This document shows, in pieces, positions 3,051-49,897 of a DNA stretch of 64,000 bases. A model generated the notes under the pieces. The model had not been told where the DNA came from. It worked only from the letters and a program-made list of their open reading frames with translations, and made no database searches. How positions within the stretch are numbered: position 1 is the first letter of the stretch; every line of letters starts with the position of its first letter. Both the position numbers and the translations under genes were made by a program. This stretch comes from Gammaproteobacteria bacterium (GTDB taxonomy: Bacteria > Pseudomonadota > Gammaproteobacteria > Pseudomonadales > Halieaceae): positions 62,001 to 126,000 of the forward strand of contig JAUIEP010000001.1 of NCBI GenBank assembly GCA_030428835.1, in the 5' to 3' direction.

Positions 3051-3067
3051 TGGCATAAATTGTGCCA
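3051..3067. promoter_or_regulatory. Operator-like palindrome 2 (TGGCA-N7-TGCCA)
   Basis: TGGCATAAATTGTGCCA, perfect half-sites, 87 bp upstream of the nitronate monooxygenase-like gene. Same 17-bp layout as the other six sites. Confidence 0.7.
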
Positions 3068-6864: not shown

Positions 6865-6881
6865 TGGCACATATGGTGTCA
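6865..6881. promoter_or_regulatory. Operator-like palindrome 3 between hydratase and TetR gene
   Basis: TGGCACATATGGTGTCA in the 95-bp divergent intergenic region, 43 bp upstream of the TetR start and 35 bp upstream of the hydratase start. The placement fits autoregulation of the TetR gene plus control of the hydratase. Confidence 0.75.
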
Positions 6882-6924: not shown

Positions 6925-7512
6925 ATGACACAGACGACAGAACCTGTCTCCGACGGCCGCAGGCAGCGCAGCGAACGCAGCCGCCGTGCCATCACGGAGG
7001 CCCTGCTCAGCCTGATCGCAGAGGGGGTGCTTGTGCCGACCGCGCAACAGGTCTCGGAGCGCGCCGGGGTGGGTATCCGCTCGGTGTTCCGGCATTTCTC
7101 CGACATGGAGAGCCTGTTCGTCACCGCGGACGAACTCAACCGCGCGAAGTACCAGAACCTGTTTGCGGGCGGCGACCGCAACGGGCCGCTCGACAAGCGC
7201 ATCGAACACGCCGTGGAACAACACGCGGTTGCCTACGAAGCGGCGGGGCATGTATTTCTTTCCACCACGTCGCAGCTGTGGCGCTACGAGATCCTGCAGG
7301 AGCAGTATGCCCGCGCGCAGCGCCAGATCCGCAGAGACCTCGAGGACTGGCTGCCAGAGTTGAAGGACCTGCCGGCCGACCGCCGTGAAATGGTCGACAT
7401 GCTGGCTTCATTCGAATGCTGGCACCGCCTGCGCGAGACCCAGGGCCAGAGTCGCAAGACCAGCATTCGGCTCGTTACCGACATGCTGCGCCGGGTCATC
7501 GCGGGCGACTAG
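6925..7512 (+). CDS. TetR family transcriptional regulator
   Basis: 195 residues. The N-terminal helix-turn-helix covers roughly residues 18-65 (RRAITEALLSL, TAQQVSERAGVGIRSVFRHF), which is the TetR signature; the C-terminal ligand domain is unassigned. Divergent from the enoyl-CoA hydratase, with an operator-like palindrome between. It is the only local-type repressor in the catabolic region, so it is my candidate for the protein that reads all seven TGRCA-N7-TGYCA sites. The ligand would be an acyl-CoA or the substrate itself (inference). Start ATG 6925; an out-of-frame ATG at 6921 is ignored. The next two genes may be cotranscribed. Confidence 0.92.
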   Translation: MTQTTEPVSDGRRQRSERSRRAITEALLSLIAEGVLVPTAQQVSERAGVGIRSVFRHFSDMESLFVTADELNRAKYQNLFAGGDRNGPLDKRIEHAVEQHAVAYEAAGHVFLSTTSQLWRYEILQEQYARAQRQIRRDLEDWLPELKDLPADRREMVDMLASFECWHRLRETQGQSRKTSIRLVTDMLRRVIAGD

Positions 7513-9340: not shown

Positions 9341-9376
9341 TTTGACCGGTGGCGCCGGTTGCCGTGTGTATTGTAA

Positions 9377-9393
9377 TGGCATATAGTCTGCCA
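9377..9393. promoter_or_regulatory. Operator-like palindrome 4 (TGGCA-N7-TGCCA)
   Basis: TGGCATATAGTCTGCCA, perfect half-sites, 160 bp upstream of the first acyl-CoA dehydrogenase in the 212-bp gap after the DsbA-like gene. Confidence 0.7.
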
Positions 9394-11983: not shown

Positions 11984-12256
11984 GGTCGAATTCATTCGAC
12001 CTGGCGCCGCTCCCCAACTCTGGAGGGTCGAATACATTCGACCTGTCGCCGCTCCCCAATTCTGTGGGGTCGAATTCATTCGACCTGGCGCCGCTCCCCA
12101 ACTCTGTAGGGTCGAATTCGTTCGACCTGGCGCCACTCCTCAATTCTGTGGGGTCGAATTCATTCGACCTGGCGCCGCTCGCCAATTCTGTGGCGTCGAA
12201 TTCATTCGACCTGGCGCCACTACCCCAACTCTGTAGGGTCGAATTTATTCGACCTG
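11984..12256. repeat. Tandem array of seven 42-bp units containing a palindrome
   Basis: Seven units begin at 11984, 12026, 12068, 12110, 12152, 12194 and 12237, a period of 42 bp (43 once). Each starts with the 18-bp palindrome GGTCGAATTCATTCGACC or a near copy, followed by about 24 bp close to TGGCGCCGCTCCCCAACTCTG. Because 42 is a multiple of three, several frames stay open across it, which explains the ORF-track entries here. The same palindrome occurs singly elsewhere in the window. Confidence 0.95.
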
Positions 12257-12307
12257 GCCGGACAGCTCTCGATAGCCACATCGCCTTGCATTGAGAGCGT
12301 TGTTCTA

Positions 12308-12327
12308 CGTCGAATGAATTCGACCCT
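12308..12327. repeat. Single copy of the GGTCGAAT palindrome, opposite orientation
   Basis: ACGTCGAATGAATTCGACCC, 51 bp after the tandem array and inverted relative to its units (CGACCC end outward). Same family as 33688-33707, 49808-49825 and 49878-49897. Confidence 0.85.
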
Positions 12328-14201: not shown

Positions 14202-14978
14202 CTAGTCCACCCCGGTAATGCGCCGGAGCATCTTGTTCATGCCGCCGATCCAGCGGTCGTAGTCGCCGGCCTTGCGCGCCATGTAGGTTTTGACTTCCTC
14301 GTGGGTGAGGATGAGGAACGCGTCGCGCGCCAGGTGCTCTACCACGATATCGGCCAGCACATCGGGTTCCATCATCCCGTCGGTGGAGGCCGCTTGTGTT
14401 GCGTTGGTGTTGTTGTCCGTCATCGCGGTGCGCACGGCCTGCGGGCACAGCACAGACACGTTGATGCCCTGGTGTCGGTAGGTCATCGCTATCCACTCCG
14501 CGAATCCCACGGCGGCGTGCTTCGTGGTGCCATAGGCCGCGCCGCCGAGCTGGTTCAGGAGTCCCGCGGCGGACGCAGTATTCATGAGGTGGCCGCCGCC
14601 ACGCGCAATCATGCGCGGAATCATGTGGCGCGCGGCGTACACGTGGGACATCACGTTTACGTCCCAGCAGAATTGCCACTCGTCATTCGGTGACTGCTCG
14701 CTTTCACCCGCGCCGACGCCGGCGTTGCTGCAGAACAGGTCGATGGGGCCGACCTGTGACTCCGTGTCCTCGATAACGCGCAGTACGTCCTCCTCTTTCG
14801 CCACGTCAGCGGTCATGGGGATGCAGCCCAGTTCATCGGCCGTTTGCTGCGCGGTTGCGGCATTGAGGTCTACACCGACGATGGCCTTCGTGCCCTCCGC
14901 ATTGAAGCGCCTGACCAGCGCCTTGCCGATGCCGCTCCCCGCACCGGTAATTACGACGATCTTGTCCTGCAACTGCAT
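14202..14978 (-). CDS. Short-chain dehydrogenase/reductase
   Basis: 258-residue classical SDR. The nucleotide motif is TGAGSGIG at residues 12-19, the CSNAGVG segment is present, and the YGTTK catalytic Tyr-Lys lies near residue 155. GGAG precedes ATG 14978 by about nine bases. It probably oxidises or reduces a hydroxyl/keto group of the pathway substrate. It is the first gene of a three-gene minus-strand unit and divergent from the DUF1330 gene across a region with palindrome 5. Confidence 0.92.
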   Translation of the reverse strand: MQLQDKIVVITGAGSGIGKALVRRFNAEGTKAIVGVDLNAATAQQTADELGCIPMTADVAKEEDVLRVIEDTESQVGPIDLFCSNAGVGAGESEQSPNDEWQFCWDVNVMSHVYAARHMIPRMIARGGGHLMNTASAAGLLNQLGGAAYGTTKHAAVGFAEWIAMTYRHQGINVSVLCPQAVRTAMTDNNTNATQAASTDGMMEPDVLADIVVEHLARDAFLILTHEEVKTYMARKAGDYDRWIGGMNKMLRRITGVD

Positions 14979-15006: not shown

Positions 15007-15035
15007 TTGACATAATAACTGCCATTACCTATAAA
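15007..15035 (+). promoter_or_regulatory. Sigma-70 promoter overlapping operator 5
   Basis: TTGACA at 15007-15012, a 17-bp spacer, then TATAAA at 15030-15035, 33 bp before the DUF1330 GTG. The palindrome at 15008-15024 covers most of the -35 box and the spacer, which is the classical layout for repression. Confidence 0.8.
15008..15024. promoter_or_regulatory. Operator-like palindrome 5 (TGACA-N7-TGCCA)
   Basis: TGACATAATAACTGCCA between the divergent SDR and DUF1330 genes, overlapping the -35 element of a good promoter. Confidence 0.78.
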
Positions 15036-15067
15036 GTCATGATCAAAATGCGCCGGAGAGTTGCATC

Positions 15068-15487
15068 GTGGAAGTGAAAAACGCGCTCGAACCCAACGAG
15101 CAACAGGTGGCCGGATTCAGCGATCCCGATGACAGTAAAGCCATCTACATGGTCAACCTGCTGAAGTACCGCGACAGGGCTGAATACCCCGATGGGCGCG
15201 ACAGCGAGCTGAGCGGCCGGGACGCCTACGCGCGCTACGCCGCGGCGGTCGGGGATTGCCTGGCGGCGGTCGGCGGGAGTTTCGTTTTCGCCGGCACCGT
15301 GCGCCGCCTGCTGCTGGGAGAAGTCGAAGAGTTGTGGGACGACGTCGCGATCGCAATGTACCCGAGTCGCGCCGCGATGCTGGAGATGATCATGAGTCCC
15401 ACCTACCAGGCCATCGCGGAGCACCGCGCTGCCGGGCTGGAGGGGCAGCTCAATATCGAGACCGTGGACAGCGCACTGGGCGCCTAG
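15068..15487 (+). CDS. DUF1330-family protein
   Basis: 139 residues. IYMVNLLKYRDRAEYPDG followed by GRDAYARYAAAVGDCLAAVGG and AIAMYPSRAAMLEMIMSPTYQ is the DUF1330 pattern, a ferredoxin-like dimeric alpha/beta-barrel fold with no assigned reaction. The start is GTG 15068 with GGAGAG ten bases upstream. Its stop overlaps the convergent next gene by four bases, and it is divergent from the SDR operon. Confidence 0.88.
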   Translation: MEVKNALEPNEQQVAGFSDPDDSKAIYMVNLLKYRDRAEYPDGRDSELSGRDAYARYAAAVGDCLAAVGGSFVFAGTVRRLLLGEVEELWDDVAIAMYPSRAAMLEMIMSPTYQAIAEHRAAGLEGQLNIETVDSALGA

Positions 15488-16168: not shown

Positions 16169-16185
16169 TGGCAAATGATTTGCCA
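16169..16185. promoter_or_regulatory. Operator-like palindrome 6 (TGGCA-N7-TGCCA)
   Basis: TGGCAAATGATTTGCCA, 50 bp upstream of ATG 16119 on the minus strand. It is nearly a complete palindrome (TTGGCAAATGATTTGCCA). It also fits a sigma-54 GG-N10-GC pattern, which several other sites do not. Confidence 0.68.
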
Positions 16186-17638: not shown

Positions 17639-17674
17639 TCAGGGTTTCCGCGGGCGGGGTCGGTGTTAGATCCA

Positions 17675-17732
17675 GGGGTTAAATTTTAATCCCTCCGTCC
17701 CCTTTATTTTCGCTCCGTCCCCTTTATTTTCG
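17675..17732. repeat. Palindrome plus duplicated CTCCGTCCCCTTTATTTTCG, copy A
   Basis: GGGGTTAAATTTTAATCCC (imperfect palindrome) followed by two tandem copies of about CTCCGTCCCCTTTATTTTCG. A closely related direct copy lies at 18687-18723, so the pair brackets the PEP-CTERM-like gene. Confidence 0.8.
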
Positions 17733-18406: not shown

Positions 18407-18686
18407 GTAGGACTCTCCACTAGCGAAAGGGCCGGCCCGCCGACTCACTACTCCGATAAGATACCTGGGATTCGCTCCCTTCGTCATTCGTTAGTGTTGC
18501 TACGACCGGTCACGGCAGGATCGAGTGTCCGGTTTGAGGCGTTAGCGGGACTAGTATTAGTCTAGCTCAAAATCGCGTTAACGGTGGCTTTCTGTTACGG
18601 GCGGATCGCATCTCCGCACTCTTCGCGATATGGATGAAGCGATAATCCCGGCCCAGGTCAGGCCGAAGCTTGAAGATTGGGACGAA

Positions 18687-18723
18687 GGGATTAAAGTTTA
18701 ACCCCTCCGTTCCCTTTATTTCG
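18687..18723. repeat. Palindrome plus TCCGTTCCCTTTATTTCG, copy B
   Basis: GGGATTAAAGTTTAACCCC followed by TCCGTTCCCTTTATTTCG, same orientation as copy A about 1 kb to the left. Together they flank the PEP-CTERM-like gene as direct repeats. Confidence 0.8.
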
Positions 18724-20360: not shown

Positions 20361-21596
20361 ATGGCGAAGCATCTACTCAGTGCCGTGAAGGTGAAGAACG
20401 CGAAGGGTGCCAACAGTAAGGGCGGCAAAAAATATTGGGCTGATGGTGCGGGCTTGTTCTTGCAAGTCTCGCCTACCGGCTCTAAGTCGTGGGTATTCCG
20501 TCGCAGGCAATCAGACGGTAGAACCCCGGAGGTCGGACTAGGCAGTTATCCGTCGATTGGACTGGCGGAAGCCAGAGACCGTGCCGGGGATATTCTGGCA
20601 CTGGCGAGTGCTGGTGTGCCGGTGAAGGTCGCCCGTGACAAGGTGCTGGCGATTGAGTCCGCCGAGGTACACGAGGAACTAGAGCTACCCCCGCCCGGTA
20701 CGATGACGTTCGACAAGGCCGCCGAGGAATACGTGGCGACGAAAATCGAGCCGGAATCTCGGTCAGAGAAACACGTCAAGGAATCCCGCGCCAAGCTGGC
20801 GACGTATGCCTCCCCGGTGTTCGGCTCCCTGCCTGTCGAAGAGGTCGAGCTACAACACATACGGGCTGCACTCGAACCGATCTGGCTGACGAAAAACCCG
20901 AGTGCGGTCAAACTGCGCGGGCTGATAGAGCAGGTTATCGACTACGCCACGGTCATGGGGTACCGGAAGGGCGAGAACCCGGCCCGGTGGCGCGGTAATC
21001 TCAAGCACGTACTCGCCAGCCCTAGCAAGGTGATCGGCGTCAAGCATCTGCCCTCGCTCCACTATGACGCGATGGGCGAATTCATGGCGGCATTGAAAGG
21101 TAGGGAAGGGCATCGCGCCCGGTGCCTAGAGCTGACCATTTACACGGCGGTACGGAGCGGCGAGAGCAGGGGTGCCCGGTGGGCAGAGATCGACCTTGCC
21201 AAAAAACTGTGGGTCATTCCCGGCGACCGTATGAAGGCAGGGCGGGAGCATCGCGTTCCGTTGTCTGCGCAGGCCGTGAAAATTCTCAAAGGGCAGGAAG
21301 GGCACCACGAAGAATTTGTATTCCCCGGTGCGCGAGGTAACAGCTACTTGTCGAATATGGCGATGACCATGCTATTGCGCGATATGGGCCGGGCAGATAT
21401 CAGCGTTCACGGCTTTCGCTCCACCTTCCGAACATGGGCGGCAGAGACTACCGGGCATCCACACGATATTTGCGAAGCTGCGTTATCGCACGTTGTCGGT
21501 GATAAGACGGTAGCAGCGTATCAGCATTCCGACTTGCTAGAGCGACGACGCGAGCTAATGACCGATTGGGCGAAGTTCCTGACAGTGAGTAAGTAA
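20361..21596 (+). CDS. int: P4-type tyrosine integrase
   Basis: 411 residues. The N-terminal DUF4102-like domain (KVKNAKGANSKGGKKYWADGAGLFLQV) is followed by a SAM-like core-binding domain and the catalytic domain. The active-site set reads Arg in TAVRSGE, Lys in DRMKAGREHR, HGFR, His in ALSHVVG, and the nucleophile Tyr in VAAYQHSD. This family integrates into tRNA 3' ends, and selC is a classical target. It reads away from the left core, the usual position for a satellite or P4-like island. Confidence 0.96.
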   Translation: MAKHLLSAVKVKNAKGANSKGGKKYWADGAGLFLQVSPTGSKSWVFRRRQSDGRTPEVGLGSYPSIGLAEARDRAGDILALASAGVPVKVARDKVLAIESAEVHEELELPPPGTMTFDKAAEEYVATKIEPESRSEKHVKESRAKLATYASPVFGSLPVEEVELQHIRAALEPIWLTKNPSAVKLRGLIEQVIDYATVMGYRKGENPARWRGNLKHVLASPSKVIGVKHLPSLHYDAMGEFMAALKGREGHRARCLELTIYTAVRSGESRGARWAEIDLAKKLWVIPGDRMKAGREHRVPLSAQAVKILKGQEGHHEEFVFPGARGNSYLSNMAMTMLLRDMGRADISVHGFRSTFRTWAAETTGHPHDICEAALSHVVGDKTVAAYQHSDLLERRRELMTDWAKFLTVSK

Positions 21597-30175: not shown

Positions 30176-30195
30176 TGGCGGAAGAGGTAGGAGTC
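30176..30195. other. Right attachment core inside selC
   Basis: TGGCGGAAGAGGTAGGAGTC, the complement of the selC 3' end including its CCA. Identical to 20107-20126. Confidence 0.92.
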
Positions 30196-30269
30196 AAACC
30201 CACCAGGCACCACGTCGGCGCCTCGCTGGTTTTGAAGACCAGGCACCCCACCGGGGATGTCGCTCTTCC
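30176..30269 (-). tRNA. selC: tRNA-Sec (anticodon UCA)
   Basis: On the minus strand the gene reads GGAAGAGCGACATCC ... ACTCCTACCTCTTCCGCCA, 94 nt with encoded CCA. The anticodon arm CTGGT-CTTCAAA-ACCAG carries TCA, and the long variable arm (GCGAGGCGCC-GACG-TGGTGCCTGG region) is typical for Sec. The acceptor GGAAGAG pairs with CTCTTCC. Integration of the satellite keeps the full tRNA. selB and selA lie immediately upstream on the same strand. Confidence 0.97.
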
Positions 30270-30282
30270 GGGGTAGTCGAGT

Positions 30283-32196
30283 TTAGCCGCCGTACAGGCG
30301 TTCGGGTAGCTCCGCGTCCAGCACCACGCGCTCATTGTCTCGACGCTGGGTAAATCTGATGTTGTCGAAGTACTCCAGTACTTCCACCGTCAGATTGCGC
30401 CCCGCGGACCATTCATTCTTCACGTTGATGACAGTCACCGCCTCACCGCGGGCGACAACGCGCAGGAGTCCCCGCGCGAGTTGCAGCAGGTGTACCGGGA
30501 GTGCACTGCGCCTGTCGGAGACTCGGTGGAGTTCGCCTGTCTTGACCTTCTCGCGGATAATTTTCTGCAGCCGGGACTGTTCCAGCCTCGTGCCCTGTAA
30601 CAGTTCCGAGAACAGCGGTATCTGCCTGCCGTGCGCATCCAGTGCCTGCCTGATCGTCTGCCAGGCCTTTTCATCCTGCGACGATACCCGCGGCCTGAAG
30701 TCGGTCTGTGCAACAAGGCCATCCCTCAGAGTGAAAGCGCCGCTGTAGATCATATCGCCAAGGACCGCGAGCAGCAGGTGTTGGGGTGTCGCCCTGCGCA
30801 GTGGTGCTGTCAATGTGGAAATCTTCAGGCCGGCTTCCTGATTGTGCTCGCGGTGATACGCCGTAACGCCGGCCTGCAGTGCGTCGCGCACCGCGCGCCA
30901 GCGCGTCTCGCTGACGAGCCAGCGCGTGTTGTCCCGCGTGTAGGCGCGCGCGCCGTCGGGACGCAGTGCGTCGGTCGCGGTGCCCGTGAGGTTGCAGGAA
31001 CCCGCGAAGCGCTCGACGTTTACCGGCTCATCCAGGGCGAGGCGGGCAGCCAGGGCCGCCGCGGGTGTTTCCGCCTGCATCGCCCGCACGTGCTCCACGT
31101 GCTTTTCCCGCGGGCGGCGCGGCATTGTGCCGCCCGGGTCCAGAACCTGTCCGCCACCCAGCAGTTCGCTGCCCGAGTCGTCGCGCAGCAGGAACCGCTC
31201 GCCGCGTGCGCAGGCGACCGGCTCGTCTGTCAGTAGCTGTCCGAGCAACTCATCGCCGGGTCCGATGCGCGTCGTCCCGAACAGTGCGAGTCGCGCGGCC
31301 ACGCGTCGAGCGCCTATGTGGAGCTTGACCGGCGCCATGTGCTTGAGCGGGAAGGGCGCGTGGGGGAGGAGGCCGCAGCTCACATCGAGGCGAGTGGACG
31401 GCGCCGCGGCATCGCTGCCAACGAGCCAGTCGCCGCGCGCCACATCGTCCAGCGCGACGTCGCCGGTAAGGTTCAGGGCGCAACGCTGGCCCGCAACCGC
31501 GAGTTCTGCCTCGCCGTCATGCACGCGCAGTGAGCGCACCCGCACCTCGCGGCCGGCGGGTTCGAGGCGCAGTGTCTCGCCCGTGGCGACAGCGCCAGCG
31601 GACACGGTACCGGTAACCACAAGGCCGCTACCCTTGAGGTGAAACGCGCGGTCTACTGCGAGTCGAAAACACTGTCCGTCGTGCGCATGGGATCGGTTGT
31701 CACACAACGCCAGCAGGTGGTTCTTCAACGCGTCCACGCCTTCGCCGGTCGCGTTGCTGAGCGGGAAAACGGGGGCATCCTCCCAGCCGCGTGCTCGGCA
31801 TAGCGCGGCCACGCTCTCCGTCGCGGCCTCCCTCTGCGCCTGCGTGGCGCGATCGATCTTGCTCAATGCGATCGTGAGCGCCGGCACACCGAGCAGACGG
31901 AGTACATCTAGATGCTCAATGGTCTGCGGCATCGGGCCGTCGTCCGCCGCGACCAGCAGCAGGCCGCGGTCGATGCCGCTCACGCCCGCGATCATGTTGT
32001 TGATGAAGCGGTGGTGTCCCGGCACGTCGATGAAGCCGATGGGCAGGCCGACAGCGCGCGGCAGGTAGGCGAAGCCGAGGTTGATGGACAGGCCGCGGCG
32101 CTTTTCCTCCTCCGTGCGGTCGGTGTCGACGCCAGTCAGGTGCGCGATGAGGGACGTCTTGCCGTGATCGACGTGGCCGGCGGTCGCGATGATCAC
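30283..32196 (-). CDS. selB: Selenocysteine-specific elongation factor SelB
   Basis: 637 residues. It delivers Sec-tRNA to UGA codons next to a SECIS element. The GTPase part shows [28 protein letters not shown] and the SKID form of the NKxD box. EF-Tu-like beta domains follow, then C-terminal winged helices for mRNA binding (from about residue 370). I use GTG 32196, which overlaps the selA stop (GTGA), instead of the longer track ORF, because the protein then begins [13 protein letters not shown] as in other SelB proteins. Confidence 0.97.
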
Positions 32197-33590
32197 CGGT
32201 TGAGCTGGCGGAACTGGTCCAGGAAGTGCTGTTCGTCGCCGCTGTCCAGGCAACGCAGGTCCAGCCAGAGGGCGCCGCGGTGCACGCGGCCGATGACCGG
32301 GCGGGGCAGGTCGCGCAGCCGCGCCGCCAGTGCGCCCACTGACTGCCCGCTGTCGCCTGACGGTCGCAGGCAGAGGGCGCTACTCGGCAGTGTTTCCACC
32401 GGCAGTGAGCCGCTGCCGATCTGGCTCTGGCAGTCCTCCACGCTCACGCTGCAGAACGCTCCGATCAGTTCCGCGACGGCGGGAGCGAGGCGCGCGGCCT
32501 GTGCGCTGATCTGCGCGGCATCGCGTGTCAGCAGGCGCAACGTGGGCAACTCCCGCAGCAGGCGTGCCGGGTTGCGGTACAGCTTGAGCACCTCCGCCAG
32601 GGCGGCGAGGGTGACCTTGTCAAGTCGCAACGCCCGTTTCAGCGGGTTCTGCCGCACAATGCGGACCAGGTCCGCGCGTCCCGCGATGATGCCGGCCTGG
32701 GGGCCGCCCAGCAGCTTGTCGCCGCTGAAGGTGACAAGGTCGGCGCCGCCGGCGATCGCCTCGGCGGCGGTGGGCTCGGGCGGCAAGCCAAGCGCGGCGA
32801 AGTCGACGAGGTTGCCGCTGCCGAGATCGGTGACAAACGGCAGCGCGTGCTCGTGCGCCAGCGCCGCGAGGTCGCCCTCCGGCACTGCCTTGGTAAAACC
32901 CTGCACCTCGTAGTTGCTCGTGTGCACCTTCATCAGCAGTGCCGTGTCGGGGCCGATGGCCCGGCGGTAGTCCTTGAGGTGCGTGCGGTTGGTCGCACCG
33001 ACTTCCACGAGCCTGCAACCGGAGCGCTCCATCACCTCGGGTATGCGGAACGAGCCGCCGATCTCCACCAGTTCGCCGCGGGAGACCGGCACCTCGCGGC
33101 CGAGTGCGAGGCTGTTCAACACGAGCAGCACCGCGGCGGCATTGTTGTTCACGACGGTGGCGGCTTCCGCGCCTGTCAACGCGCAGACCAGGTGCTCCAC
33201 GTGCGTCTCGCGTTCACCGCGCCCCCCTGTCTCCAGGTCGAACTCCAGGTTACTGGGATTCGCGGCGGCGATGGCCATGGCGTCGATGGCGCGGCGTGGC
33301 AAGAGCGCGCGCCCGAGGTTGGTGTGCAGCACGGTGCCGGTCAGGTTGTACAGCGGTTTGAGTGTCGGCGTGTCCGCGGCTTCCAGGTGCCGGTTGAGGT
33401 CGGCGCGAAGGGATTCGACGTCCACGGTGCCGCCCGCGGCAATCTCGCGCCGCAGTTCCGACAGGCGCTCGCGCAGCGCCTCGGTGACGGCTTCGCGGCC
33501 CCAGCGCTCTATCTCGCCCGGCAGTGCGCGCAGCACTTCGTCGATGGAGGGCAGTTGGCGGTAGGGGTTGTCGCGGGTGGTGTCTGTCAT
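32193..33590 (-). CDS. selA: L-seryl-tRNA(Sec) selenium transferase SelA
   Basis: 465 residues, close to the E. coli length. This PLP enzyme turns Ser-tRNA(Sec) into Sec-tRNA(Sec) with selenophosphate. It opens RQLPSIDEVLRALPGE; the core has LYNLTGTVLHTNLGRALLP, NNNAAAVLLVLN, the PLP lysine in TFSGDKLLGGPQAG, and GRVHRGALWLDLRCL near the end. ATG 33590 is chosen since the track extension reads through repeats; no clear Shine-Dalgarno is visible. Upstream, 33612-33645 holds three GGGTGAAG words in tandem. First gene of selA-selB-selC. Confidence 0.97.
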   Translation of the reverse strand: MTDTTRDNPYRQLPSIDEVLRALPGEIERWGREAVTEALRERLSELRREIAAGGTVDVESLRADLNRHLEAADTPTLKPLYNLTGTVLHTNLGRALLPRRAIDAMAIAAANPSNLEFDLETGGRGERETHVEHLVCALTGAEAATVVNNNAAAVLLVLNSLALGREVPVSRGELVEIGGSFRIPEVMERSGCRLVEVGATNRTHLKDYRRAIGPDTALLMKVHTSNYEVQGFTKAVPEGDLAALAHEHALPFVTDLGSGNLVDFAALGLPPEPTAAEAIAGGADLVTFSGDKLLGGPQAGIIAGRADLVRIVRQNPLKRALRLDKVTLAALAEVLKLYRNPARLLRELPTLRLLTRDAAQISAQAARLAPAVAELIGAFCSVSVEDCQSQIGSGSLPVETLPSSALCLRPSGDSGQSVGALAARLRDLPRPVIGRVHRGALWLDLRCLDSGDEQHFLDQFRQLNR

Positions 33591-33687: not shown

Positions 33688-33707
33688 AGGTCGAATGAAT
33701 TCGACCC
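33688..33707. repeat. GGTCGAAT-family palindrome near selA
   Basis: AGGTCGAATGAATTCGACCC in the gap between selA and the GST-like gene. A degenerate copy, GTCGACCGAATTCGGCCCC, lies at 33755-33773. Confidence 0.85.
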
Positions 33708-33824: not shown

Positions 33825-33841
33825 TGGCATTAATCGTGTCA
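33825..33841. promoter_or_regulatory. Operator-like palindrome 7 (TGGCA-N7-TGTCA)
   Basis: TGGCATTAATCGTGTCA, 35 bp upstream of the GST-like gene's ATG, in an A/T-rich patch (GTGTCAATATAT) that probably includes the promoter. It links this block to the 0.8-16 kb region. Confidence 0.72.
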
Positions 33842-33876: not shown

Positions 33877-34917
33877 ATGTCCCGCTCCGACCGCCTGCGC
33901 CTGATCGGCGGCACCGGCTCGCCCTACACCCAGAAGATGATCGCGGTGCTGCGTTACCGCCGCATTCTGTACGCCATCACCTGGGGCGACCCCGTCGCCG
34001 TGCTCGACCAGATGGGGCTGGAAAAGCCGCGCCCGACGTTTCACCCGACCTTCCTCTTCGAGGACGACAACGGCGCCGTCCAGCCGACCTGCGACTCCAG
34101 CCCGATCATCCGCCGCCTGGAAGCGGACCACGCGGGGCGCGAGGTTATCCCGGCAGACCCGGCGCTCGCCTTCCTCGATTACCTGATCGAGGACTTCGGC
34201 GACGAGTGGTGCACCAAGTACATGTTTCACTACCGCTGGTACCCGGCCGAGGATGCCGACAATGCCGGCACACTGCTGCCCCTGAGTATGGACCTGGGCC
34301 TGTCGGACGAGGAACTGGCGCAGTTCAAGCGCTTCTTCTCCGACCGGCAGATCAACCGCCTCTACGTGGTCGGTTCCAACGACACGACCGCGCCCGTCAT
34401 CGACGCCAGCTACCGGCGTTACCTCGCCGCCATGGAGGCGCACCTGCAGCGGCAGCCGTTCATGCTGGGCAACCGCCCGGGTTCCGGCGATTTCAGCATG
34501 TACGGGCAACTGACACAGTTGGTCGGCTTCGACCCGACGCCCCGGGCCATCACCCACGAAGTCTCGCCGCGCACGGTGGCCTGGGTGGACCGCGTGCGGG
34601 ACCTCTGCGGCCTGGAGCCAGCCGACGCCGACTGGATTGCGGTGGAGGACCAGCCCGCCACGCTGCGCGCGCTGTTTGCCGAGATCGGCCGCGTCTACGC
34701 GCCCGCGCTGCTCGCCAACGCCGCCGCGGTGGAGGCGCAGCAGGACACCTGGGAGGCCGAAATCGACGGCGCCCCCTGGACCCAGAAGACCTTCCCCTAC
34801 CAGGCCAAGTGCCTGCGCTGGATCCGGGAGGAATACGCAGCCCTCGGCGCCGCCGACCGCGCGCGCGTGGACGGTGTCCTCGATGGCACCGGCTGCGAAA
34901 CCCTGTTCAACGCCTGA
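33877..34917 (+). CDS. Glutathione S-transferase-like protein (long form), paralogue
   Basis: 346 residues. GST thioredoxin-like N-terminus LRLIGGTGSPYTQKMIAVLRYR, then QPTCDSSPIIRRLEADH and a long helical part with MFHYRWYPAEDAD and FMLGNRPGSGDFSMYGQL. The HYRW(Y)P and LGN-P segments match the 13077-14165 protein, so the two are paralogues in one extended subfamily. GAGGAGA precedes ATG 33877. It heads a four-gene plus-strand run with 14-15 bp gaps and sits just behind palindrome 7. Confidence 0.87.
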   Translation: MSRSDRLRLIGGTGSPYTQKMIAVLRYRRILYAITWGDPVAVLDQMGLEKPRPTFHPTFLFEDDNGAVQPTCDSSPIIRRLEADHAGREVIPADPALAFLDYLIEDFGDEWCTKYMFHYRWYPAEDADNAGTLLPLSMDLGLSDEELAQFKRFFSDRQINRLYVVGSNDTTAPVIDASYRRYLAAMEAHLQRQPFMLGNRPGSGDFSMYGQLTQLVGFDPTPRAITHEVSPRTVAWVDRVRDLCGLEPADADWIAVEDQPATLRALFAEIGRVYAPALLANAAAVEAQQDTWEAEIDGAPWTQKTFPYQAKCLRWIREEYAALGAADRARVDGVLDGTGCETLFNA

Positions 34918-35891: not shown

Positions 35892-36983
35892 ATGACTGAC
35901 GTAACCACGCTCGAAGTGAACAAGTCCGACTGGGCGCAGACGCGCGTGGTGACCGAGTCGGTCGGCCCTGTCGGAGCGAACGAGGTGCTCCTCAAGGTGG
36001 ACCGCCAGGCGCTCACCGCCAATAACATTTCCTACGCGGGCGCCGGCGACAGCATCGGATACTGGGGATTCTTCCCCGCCGAGGACGGCTGGGGTCGGAT
36101 TCCCGCCATGGGATGGGCGGACGTGTTGGAATCCGGACACCCGGACATCGCGGTCGGTGAACGTGTCTGGGGGTTTTTCCCCTTCAGTACGCACCTGCGG
36201 ATACTCGCGGGTAACGTGAGTGCAGACCACTTCGACGATGTCTCGCCGCATCGCGCCCAGTATGCACCTGTGTACGCGCGCTTCGACCGGGCAGCCGCCA
36301 ACCCGATCTACGAGAAAGACCGCGAGGACCAGGACAGCCTGCTGCGCGGCCTGTTTCTTACCTCGTGGCTGGTGGAGGACTTCCTCACCTGTAACGACAG
36401 TTTCGGGGCGGAAGCCTGCCTTGTTACGAGCGCCTCCAGCAAGACCAGCATCGCGCTAGGTTTCTGTCTGAAAAAGCGCGGCAGGCTGGAGAGAGTCGGC
36501 CTCACCTCGCAGCCCAACCGCGCCTTCTGCGAGTCGCTGGGTTGCTACGACCGGGTGCTGGCCTACGACGAACTCGATGCGCTGGACGGTTCGCGCCCCG
36601 TGGTCAGCGTGGACATGGCGGGCAACATGGGCTTGCTCAGCGAGCTGCACTATCGCTACGCCGACAACCTGAAGCACTCGTGTCGGGTCGGCGCGACGCA
36701 CCATGCGCAGTTCGGTGCTGCTGGCGCTATGCCCGGGCCAGAGCCGCAGTTCTTCTTTGCCCCGGGGCATATCCAAAGCCGCAGCAAGGAGCTGGGCGCC
36801 GCCAACCTGATGCTGGCGATGGGGGCGGACTACGTGGCGTTTCGCCGGGATGCGGACCGCTGGTTGCAAGTGCAGCGCAGCTACGGGCCCGAGGCCGTGG
36901 AGCGGGTCTACCAGTCGGTGCTCTCGGGCGGGGCCGCACCCGACACTGGCCAGATCATCTCCCTGTGGCCAGCACAGAATTAG
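35892..36983 (+). CDS. DUF2855 family protein
   Basis: 363 residues beginning MTDVTTLEVNKSDWAQTRVV, with GERVWGFFPFSTHL, CLVTSASSKTSIALGFCL and VVSVDMAGNMGLLSELHY. This is the DUF2855 pattern, a medium-chain-dehydrogenase-like fold with a Rossmann segment. Neither substrate nor reaction is known. It follows the NMO-like gene by 15 bp, and its stop overlaps the convergent LLM gene by four bases. Confidence 0.85.
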   Translation: MTDVTTLEVNKSDWAQTRVVTESVGPVGANEVLLKVDRQALTANNISYAGAGDSIGYWGFFPAEDGWGRIPAMGWADVLESGHPDIAVGERVWGFFPFSTHLRILAGNVSADHFDDVSPHRAQYAPVYARFDRAAANPIYEKDREDQDSLLRGLFLTSWLVEDFLTCNDSFGAEACLVTSASSKTSIALGFCLKKRGRLERVGLTSQPNRAFCESLGCYDRVLAYDELDALDGSRPVVSVDMAGNMGLLSELHYRYADNLKHSCRVGATHHAQFGAAGAMPGPEPQFFFAPGHIQSRSKELGAANLMLAMGADYVAFRRDADRWLQVQRSYGPEAVERVYQSVLSGGAAPDTGQIISLWPAQN

Positions 36984-38029
36984 AGCAGTTCCTCGGCCAG
37001 CAGCGTAAGCCCTTCCTCCTGCGTCGAGGTCACCAGCAGCATGTCGAGTGAACCGCGCGCCTCGGCCTCGCGCCAGGCGCCCAGGCGCTCGCGGATGCGC
37101 GCCGGCGGGCCGATGAGATTGGTGCGATCGATGAGATCCAGCGGTACCGCGGCCACCGCCTTGTCCTTGTCGCCGGCAAGGTACAGCGACTGGATCTGTT
37201 CGACCTCGTCGTCATAACCCATGCGGCGTGCGAACTCGGCGTAGAAGTTCTTGCTCTTCGCTCCCATGCCGCCGAGTTGGCGGGCGAGGGTGGGGCGCAT
37301 GGCCTCCAGCACCGCCTTGTAGTCGTCGTGCACGATCGCGCTGGCAAATGTGGAGACCGTGAAGTCCTCGCGTTTGCAGCGTGCGCCGGGTTTGGCGAAG
37401 CCTTCCGCGAGGTGCCTGTCGACAGTCTCCGTGGTGTCGGTGGGATCGACAAAGGACAGCAGTATACCCTCGGCGATCTCCGCGGTGAGGCGAATGCCGC
37501 CCGGGCTGATGGAGGCGAGGTAGATGGGTTGCGCGGGGTTCGTATGCGCCACGCTGCGCAGCGGTTTGCCCAGGCCCGTGGCCGTGGGGCCCTGCGCGGG
37601 CAGGTTGTAGTGATAGCCCTCGTAGGTCACGGGAACGTCACGCGCCAGCACCTTGCGTACGATCTCGACGTACTCACGCGTGCGTACCAGCGGCTTGTCG
37701 TAACTCACGCCGTGCCAGCCCTCCACGACCTGTGGGCCCGAGGGCCCCAGGCCCAAAATAAAACGGCCACCGGACAGCGCGTCCAGGCCGATGGCCGCCA
37801 TGGCGGCGGCGGTCGGCGTGCGCGCTGGCATCTGCATGATGGCCGTGCCCACCTGCAGGCGCTCACTATGGGCCGCGAGCCAGGCTGCGCAACTCACGGC
37901 GTCGCAGCCGTAGGCCTCGGCGACCCAGGCGGAGTGGTAGCCGAGGTTTTCCACGGTGCGTAGCAGTTCGAGATCGAGGGTGGGGTGTGCGCTGAACGCG
38001 GTCTGGATCAAACCCAGGCCAAGCTTCAT
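36980..38029 (-). CDS. LLM-class (luciferase-like) oxidoreductase
   Basis: 349 residues from ATG 38029, preceded by AAGGAAAGG. Bacterial-luciferase TIM barrel: MKLGLGLIQTAFSAHP, LGYHSAWVAEAYGCDAVS, RLQVGTAIMQMPARTP, GRFILGLGPSGPQVVEGWHG. The GPSGPQVVEGWHG stretch is typical of the F420-dependent branch (MER-like), but F420 versus FMN use cannot be settled from sequence. No palindromic operator is seen upstream, and it lies opposite to the GST/NMO/DUF2855 unit. Confidence 0.87.
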   Translation of the reverse strand: MKLGLGLIQTAFSAHPTLDLELLRTVENLGYHSAWVAEAYGCDAVSCAAWLAAHSERLQVGTAIMQMPARTPTAAAMAAIGLDALSGGRFILGLGPSGPQVVEGWHGVSYDKPLVRTREYVEIVRKVLARDVPVTYEGYHYNLPAQGPTATGLGKPLRSVAHTNPAQPIYLASISPGGIRLTAEIAEGILLSFVDPTDTTETVDRHLAEGFAKPGARCKREDFTVSTFASAIVHDDYKAVLEAMRPTLARQLGGMGAKSKNFYAEFARRMGYDDEVEQIQSLYLAGDKDKAVAAVPLDLIDRTNLIGPPARIRERLGAWREAEARGSLDMLLVTSTQEEGLTLLAEELL

Positions 38030-38291
38030 GGGCCTTTCCTTGTCGCTGCGATGGATGTGCATAGTGTCACACGCTGCGCCGTGAAGCGATGCGTGGGGAA
38101 CGACGGCTGATTCCTGGGAATATCTTGATATAACCGCCGTGATTTTTGCGCCTATTTATACCCAGCGCCAGTAGAACGCTGTTTTTGTAACTTGTCGACA
38201 CCTCCGCGCTTTGGGGCATAGCCACCCACCTCTATACTCCCCGCAGGGACAAGAAAACCGCTGGTAATAAAAAGCGGGCAGGGGACAGACA

Positions 38292-49807: not shown

Positions 49808-49897
49808 GGGTCGAATTTATTCGCCGCAAAACTCATTGCTCGATACCCAGTGATGTTGGTATCGAGAACGTCGTTCCAGGTCGAATAAATTCGACCC
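49808..49897. repeat. Pair of GGTCGAAT palindromes around a hairpin
   Basis: GGGTCGAATTTATTCGCC at 49808-49825, then the hairpin CTCGATACC-cagtgatgtt-GGTATCGAG at 49839-49866, then AGGTCGAATAAATTCGACCC at 49878-49897. The arrangement resembles a REP/BIME-type mosaic element between two genes. Confidence 0.82.

Follow-up and report, generated by a model that had tools for sequence, protein, structure and literature searches.

A palindrome across two opposed overlapping promoters as the predicted operator of a TetR-family regulator in a Halieaceae bacterium

Described systems and the SDR/DUF1330 locus

Most TetR-family regulators with divergent targets less than 200 bp away act as repressors; TetR of Tn10 represses both divergent promoters (PMC3511530). 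The tetA and tetR promoters of Tn10 overlap and are divergent, according to Bertrand et al. 1983 as cited in PMC11686294. Here we analysed a 64-kb stretch of a Halieaceae genome (the window), in which the genes of a short-chain dehydrogenase (SDR) and of a DUF1330 protein diverge from each other. This locus is similar to tetA/tetR in having a TetR-family regulator, putatively a dimer at its site, a palindromic operator, a short divergent gap and, as we predict, double repression. It also differs from Tn10. Tn10 has two 15-bp operators, whereas we found one 17-bp operator of another sequence; and the regulator gene is adjacent in Tn10, whereas here it is 8 kb distant and the targets are two enzyme-type genes. 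The tetA/tetR type of arrangement, in which the regulator is itself one of the two divergent genes, does not occur at SDR/DUF1330 and occurs in several SAR86-labelled loci.

DesT and FadR from Thermus thermophilus are also comparable, since they have the TetR fold, their solved structures are among the fold matches of the protein encoded at 6925-7512, and fatty-acid-type genes are in the regulon; however, their identity to that protein is about 20% or less. TGRCA-N7-TGYCA, the form of the palindrome at 15008-15024, is not known as the operator of DesT or T. thermophilus FadR. No description of the motif or of the regulon was found in the literature searched, whose coverage was partial; within that coverage the operator and the regulon appear undescribed, and the mode of control is classical. 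We think it likely that 15008-15024 is the operator of the TetR dimer encoded at 6925-7512, which would exclude RNA polymerase from two overlapping sigma-70 promoters and would be released by a ligand. For an unstudied gene cluster common to uncultured marine bacteria, this puts forward a regulator, an operator and a regulatory mode as candidates, with predictions at single-base level for two start sites and one common operator.

The candidate regulator and the copies of its site

The palindrome at 15008-15024 (TGACATAATAACTGCCA) is one of seven exact copies of TGRCA-N7-TGYCA in the window, compared with 0.13 expected from an order-3 Markov model. The copies start at 807, 3051, 6865, 9377, 15008, 16169 and 33825, all inside 33 kb around the gene of the TetR-family regulator that likely binds them (6925-7512, plus strand, with a 195-aa product). 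An exact operator (6865-6881) is located 60 bp 5' of this gene and is common to the enoyl-CoA hydratase gene on the minus strand. The product carries the N-terminal TetR helix-turn-helix domain; Pfam TetR_N gave E 3.6e-5 and 23.9 bits on the whole protein, against a cut-off of 24, and 26.3 bits, above the cut-off, in the genome search. It also has the all-helical TetR fold, as the model has a pLDDT of 88.9 and its top Foldseek matches are TetR-family regulators (TM <=0.71). Across 20 homologs there is hardly any variation in the recognition-helix segment, IRSxFRHF.

The motif is associated with genes of this TetR subfamily. We searched 250 bp upstream of 35 homologs (32-100% identical) and found it exact in 18 of the 35 and with at most one mismatch in 30, compared with 2% and 8% in random windows of the same loci and 0.2% and 4% in shuffled upstream regions. 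At six loci (L062, L064, L066, L067, L068 and L085), DUF1330 is divergent from the TetR gene and the two have a single exact site in common; several of the loci in which DUF1330 faces the TetR gene are SAR86-labelled and others are related. This directly links the regulator, the operator and DUF1330. Rfam gave no match near the 15008-15024 site.

The whole genome (5.23 Mb) has 26 copies of TGRCA-N7-TGYCA, compared with 9 for the reversed control pattern. The 19 copies outside the window are mostly within ORFs, and the clearest exception precedes an acyl-CoA dehydrogenase-like gene. About 3 kb away is the gene of a TetR paralog (contig C247), a protein 55% identical to the 6925-7512 product and one of about 50 other TetR_N matches in the genome search. 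The presence of this paralog and the copy close to it would fit a different regulator that binds the operator, with the local TetR not the main controller. However, the 578 bp upstream of the paralog gene contain no site with two or fewer mismatches, whereas the TetR gene in the window has an exact one, and 7 of the 26 genome sites cluster around the latter. Control mainly by such a different regulator is thus unlikely. Bare pattern counts in 57 relatives failed to separate genomes with the TetR gene from those without it and are uninformative, because a 10-base pattern is too loose. We also noticed an exact copy in an A/T-rich stretch at 1518-1534 of L168 (contig C23), just 5' of a gene (1548-2843) whose product resembles a PAS-type regulator by eye; it is possibly a distant regulon member.

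Besides the copies at TetR and at SDR/DUF1330, the window has operators 5' of a gene for a FadJ/FadB-like multifunctional beta-oxidation enzyme (operator 807-823, gene 861-2918), upstream of a nitronate monooxygenase-like gene (3051-3067), upstream of two acyl-CoA dehydrogenase genes (9377-9393), upstream of the gene of an uncharacterised 212-aa protein (16169-16185) and upstream of a GST-like gene (operator 33825-33841, gene 33877-34917), after which nitronate monooxygenase and DUF2855 genes follow. We tentatively suggest that this could be a TetR regulon widespread among marine bacteria of the Halieaceae and SAR86 types, in which a promoter-embedded operator would control an uncharacterised CoA/GST/nitronate-monooxygenase pathway. 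The DUF2855 gene (35892-36983) behind the operator at 33825 is accompanied by a luciferase-like monooxygenase gene (36980-38062). The 33825 operator is separated from the main operator cluster by a phage-type integrase gene (20361-21596) and a tRNA-Sec with selB/selA-like genes (30176-33590); the regulon may have been divided by a mobile element.

Two opposed promoters in one gap

The SDR gene (14202-14978, minus strand) and the DUF1330 gene (15068-15487, plus strand) are separated by a gap of 89 bp. The DUF1330 gene has a GTG start, which is consistent with homologs matching from residue 1, and GGAGA is located at 15055-15059. Its predicted promoter is composed of a -35 box TTGACA (15007-15012), a 17-nt spacer (15013-15029) and a -10 box TATAAA (15030-15035). 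The sequence-only reading had called this the best sigma-70 promoter of the region. We confirmed the bases, and by a position-weighted sigma-70 hexamer score TTGACA-N17-TATAAA outranked every other position of the window on either strand; it is also the sole 11/12 sigma-70 match in the 64 kb. Its -10 box is without the conserved final T, and the promoter is missing from a consensus promoter scan for this reason alone, as the scan accepts nothing but T at that position. The same reading had placed the palindrome over the -35 box and most of the spacer, and this agrees with our count: the left arm overlaps the -35 box, and 5 of 6 bases of that box and 12 of 17 spacer bases are in the operator.

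On the minus strand, ATGACT (15040-15035)-N17-TATTAT (15017-15012) ranked seventh in the window and faces the SDR gene, with a leader of about 27 nt and GGAG ahead of the ATG. At the level of sequence, therefore, two opposed promoters, 15007-15035 (plus) and 15040-15012 (minus), overlap across 15012-15035, and the operator lies across core elements of both, spanning the entire -10 box of the minus promoter in addition to the -35 region and spacer of the plus promoter. The palindrome had been regarded as an operator of DUF1330. It does sit on the DUF1330 promoter, but not on that promoter alone, as the second promoter, that of SDR, had been missed. Judging from the overlapping promoter elements, the palindrome is probably a switch common to SDR and DUF1330.

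Two genomes of the same genus, G010 (L028/L137) and G014 (L022/L140, on the same contig as L051), keep the SDR/DUF1330 arrangement, with DUF1330 proteins that share 59-67% identity with that of the window. The string common to the orthologous gaps is TGTTG-CA-AATA--TG-C------TATAA-GTCA. In G010, the plus promoter is TTGGCA-N17-TATAAT, the minus promoter is GTGACA-N17-TATTAT and the operator is exact; in G014, the right arm of the operator carries a single mismatch. The DUF1330 -10 box is TATAAA and TATAAT in the two relatives, and TATAAT in a relative with the same gap supports the hexamer register of TATAAA. Both relatives thus retain in this gap the operator, the N17 spacing and the two promoters, with conservation of TTGRCA partly forced by the operator itself. 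In the block 15030-15039, which is outside the operator, 9 of 10 positions are invariant, compared with 9 of 54 gap positions outside the block (binomial P about 8e-7, a rough value as the block was chosen after inspection). This invariance gives independent support to the DUF1330 -10 box and the opposed SDR -35 box. No more than three genomes were found to have exactly this SDR/DUF1330 arrangement; in other relatives, DUF1330 or SDR is located elsewhere, at times without a nearby site.

These gaps also bear on the possibility that an extended -10 element within the operator (TGACATAAT, 15008-15016) drives transcription of DUF1330 from about 15023. TGR-CATAAT is present in 2 of the 3 orthologous gaps, but no -35 box is evident upstream, and a separate TATAAA or TATAAT at the fixed N17 spacing is kept in 3 of 3 gaps despite being outside the operator. 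We therefore regard this start as quite unlikely and favour 15007-15035 as the DUF1330 promoter.

Operators overlie predicted promoters elsewhere in the window. The operator at 9377-9393 is over the -10 box (TATAGT) of TTGCCG-N17-TATAGT (9359-9387), and that at 16169-16185 is over the -10 box (AATCAT) of a minus-strand promoter (16203-16175); these promoters rank second and ninth. Four of the nine top-scored promoter sites in the window overlap operators, and when rank 4, a second reading of the DUF1330 plus promoter, is left out, 4 of the 8 best distinct predictions do so. Since the -10 box is within the operator at 9377 and 16169, the promoter at 15007-15035 is not typical of the whole regulon. 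A search for the composite of operator and -10 (TTGRCA-N7-TGYCA-N5-TATAA) gave one match in this genome; of 392 genomes in the order, 5 contain it. This pattern is rare, and the layout with the -35 box in the arm was therefore rejected as a general design of the regulon. When -10 scores were profiled by offset over 56 sites, a modest peak was seen at the register of 15008 (6 strong -10 boxes at offset 22), and bigger peaks were seen inside the operator; a shuffle test on this profile is confounded by A/T-rich flanks and was excluded as evidence.

Predicted double repression and its alternatives

In the mechanism that we propose, the TetR dimer from 6925-7512 would bind the palindrome at 15008-15024, and the bound repressor would block RNA polymerase at both the DUF1330 and the SDR promoters. 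The operator spans the -35 box and spacer on the DUF1330 side and the -10 box on the SDR side, a position consistent with RNA polymerase being excluded from both promoters. The operator would be freed by an inducing ligand, which may be an acyl-CoA or an intermediate of the pathway. With transcription expected to start at about 15042 (plus) and 15005 (minus), the two leaders would be about 26-27 nt long. From the almost complete overlap of the two promoters we infer that two polymerases would exclude each other there. A TTGRCA arm could act as a -35 box and the A/T-rich 7-bp centre could hold a -10 box, so that one site could throttle two opposed promoters. It had been stated earlier that the palindrome fixes the mode of action as steric repression. 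Steric repression is the likeliest mode, since the operator overlaps core elements and is conserved, but "fixes" was too strong.

The TetR protein could also bind 15008-15024 and activate one or both promoters, as a few TetR-family members do, e.g., AtrA (PMC3511530). However, the site is inside the core elements of both promoters and not 5' of a weak -35 box, the plus promoter is close to consensus as it stands, and other regulon members have the site over the -10 box. Activation is thus improbable. That the palindromes are sigma-54 -24/-12 elements is hardly credible, as the sequence-only reading had argued: TGGCA-N7-TGCCA, found at 3 of the 7 window sites, does contain GG-N10-GC at sigma-54 spacing, by coincidence, and this may be why sigma-54 came into question, but the 15008 site has no GG-N10-GC on either strand, it is present in no more than 9 of 41 distinct sites, and the sites are palindromic and G/A-variable in both arms, with TGRCA and TGYCA varying alike as a dimer site would.

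Repeats of another family, with no relation to the operator, also occur in the window. Copies of a perfect or near-perfect palindrome, GGTCGAATNNNTTCGACC, are present at 11984-12325, where seven are spaced 42-43 bp apart and one more is at 12308; two others are located far off, at 33689-33706 and 49879-49896. In total, GGTCGAATNNNTTCGACC has 20 matches on both strands, compared with 0.02 expected by chance. In addition, a 36-nt A/T-rich sequence is repeated in both direct and inverted orientation at 17674-17729 and 18679-18721, with about 1 kb between the copies.
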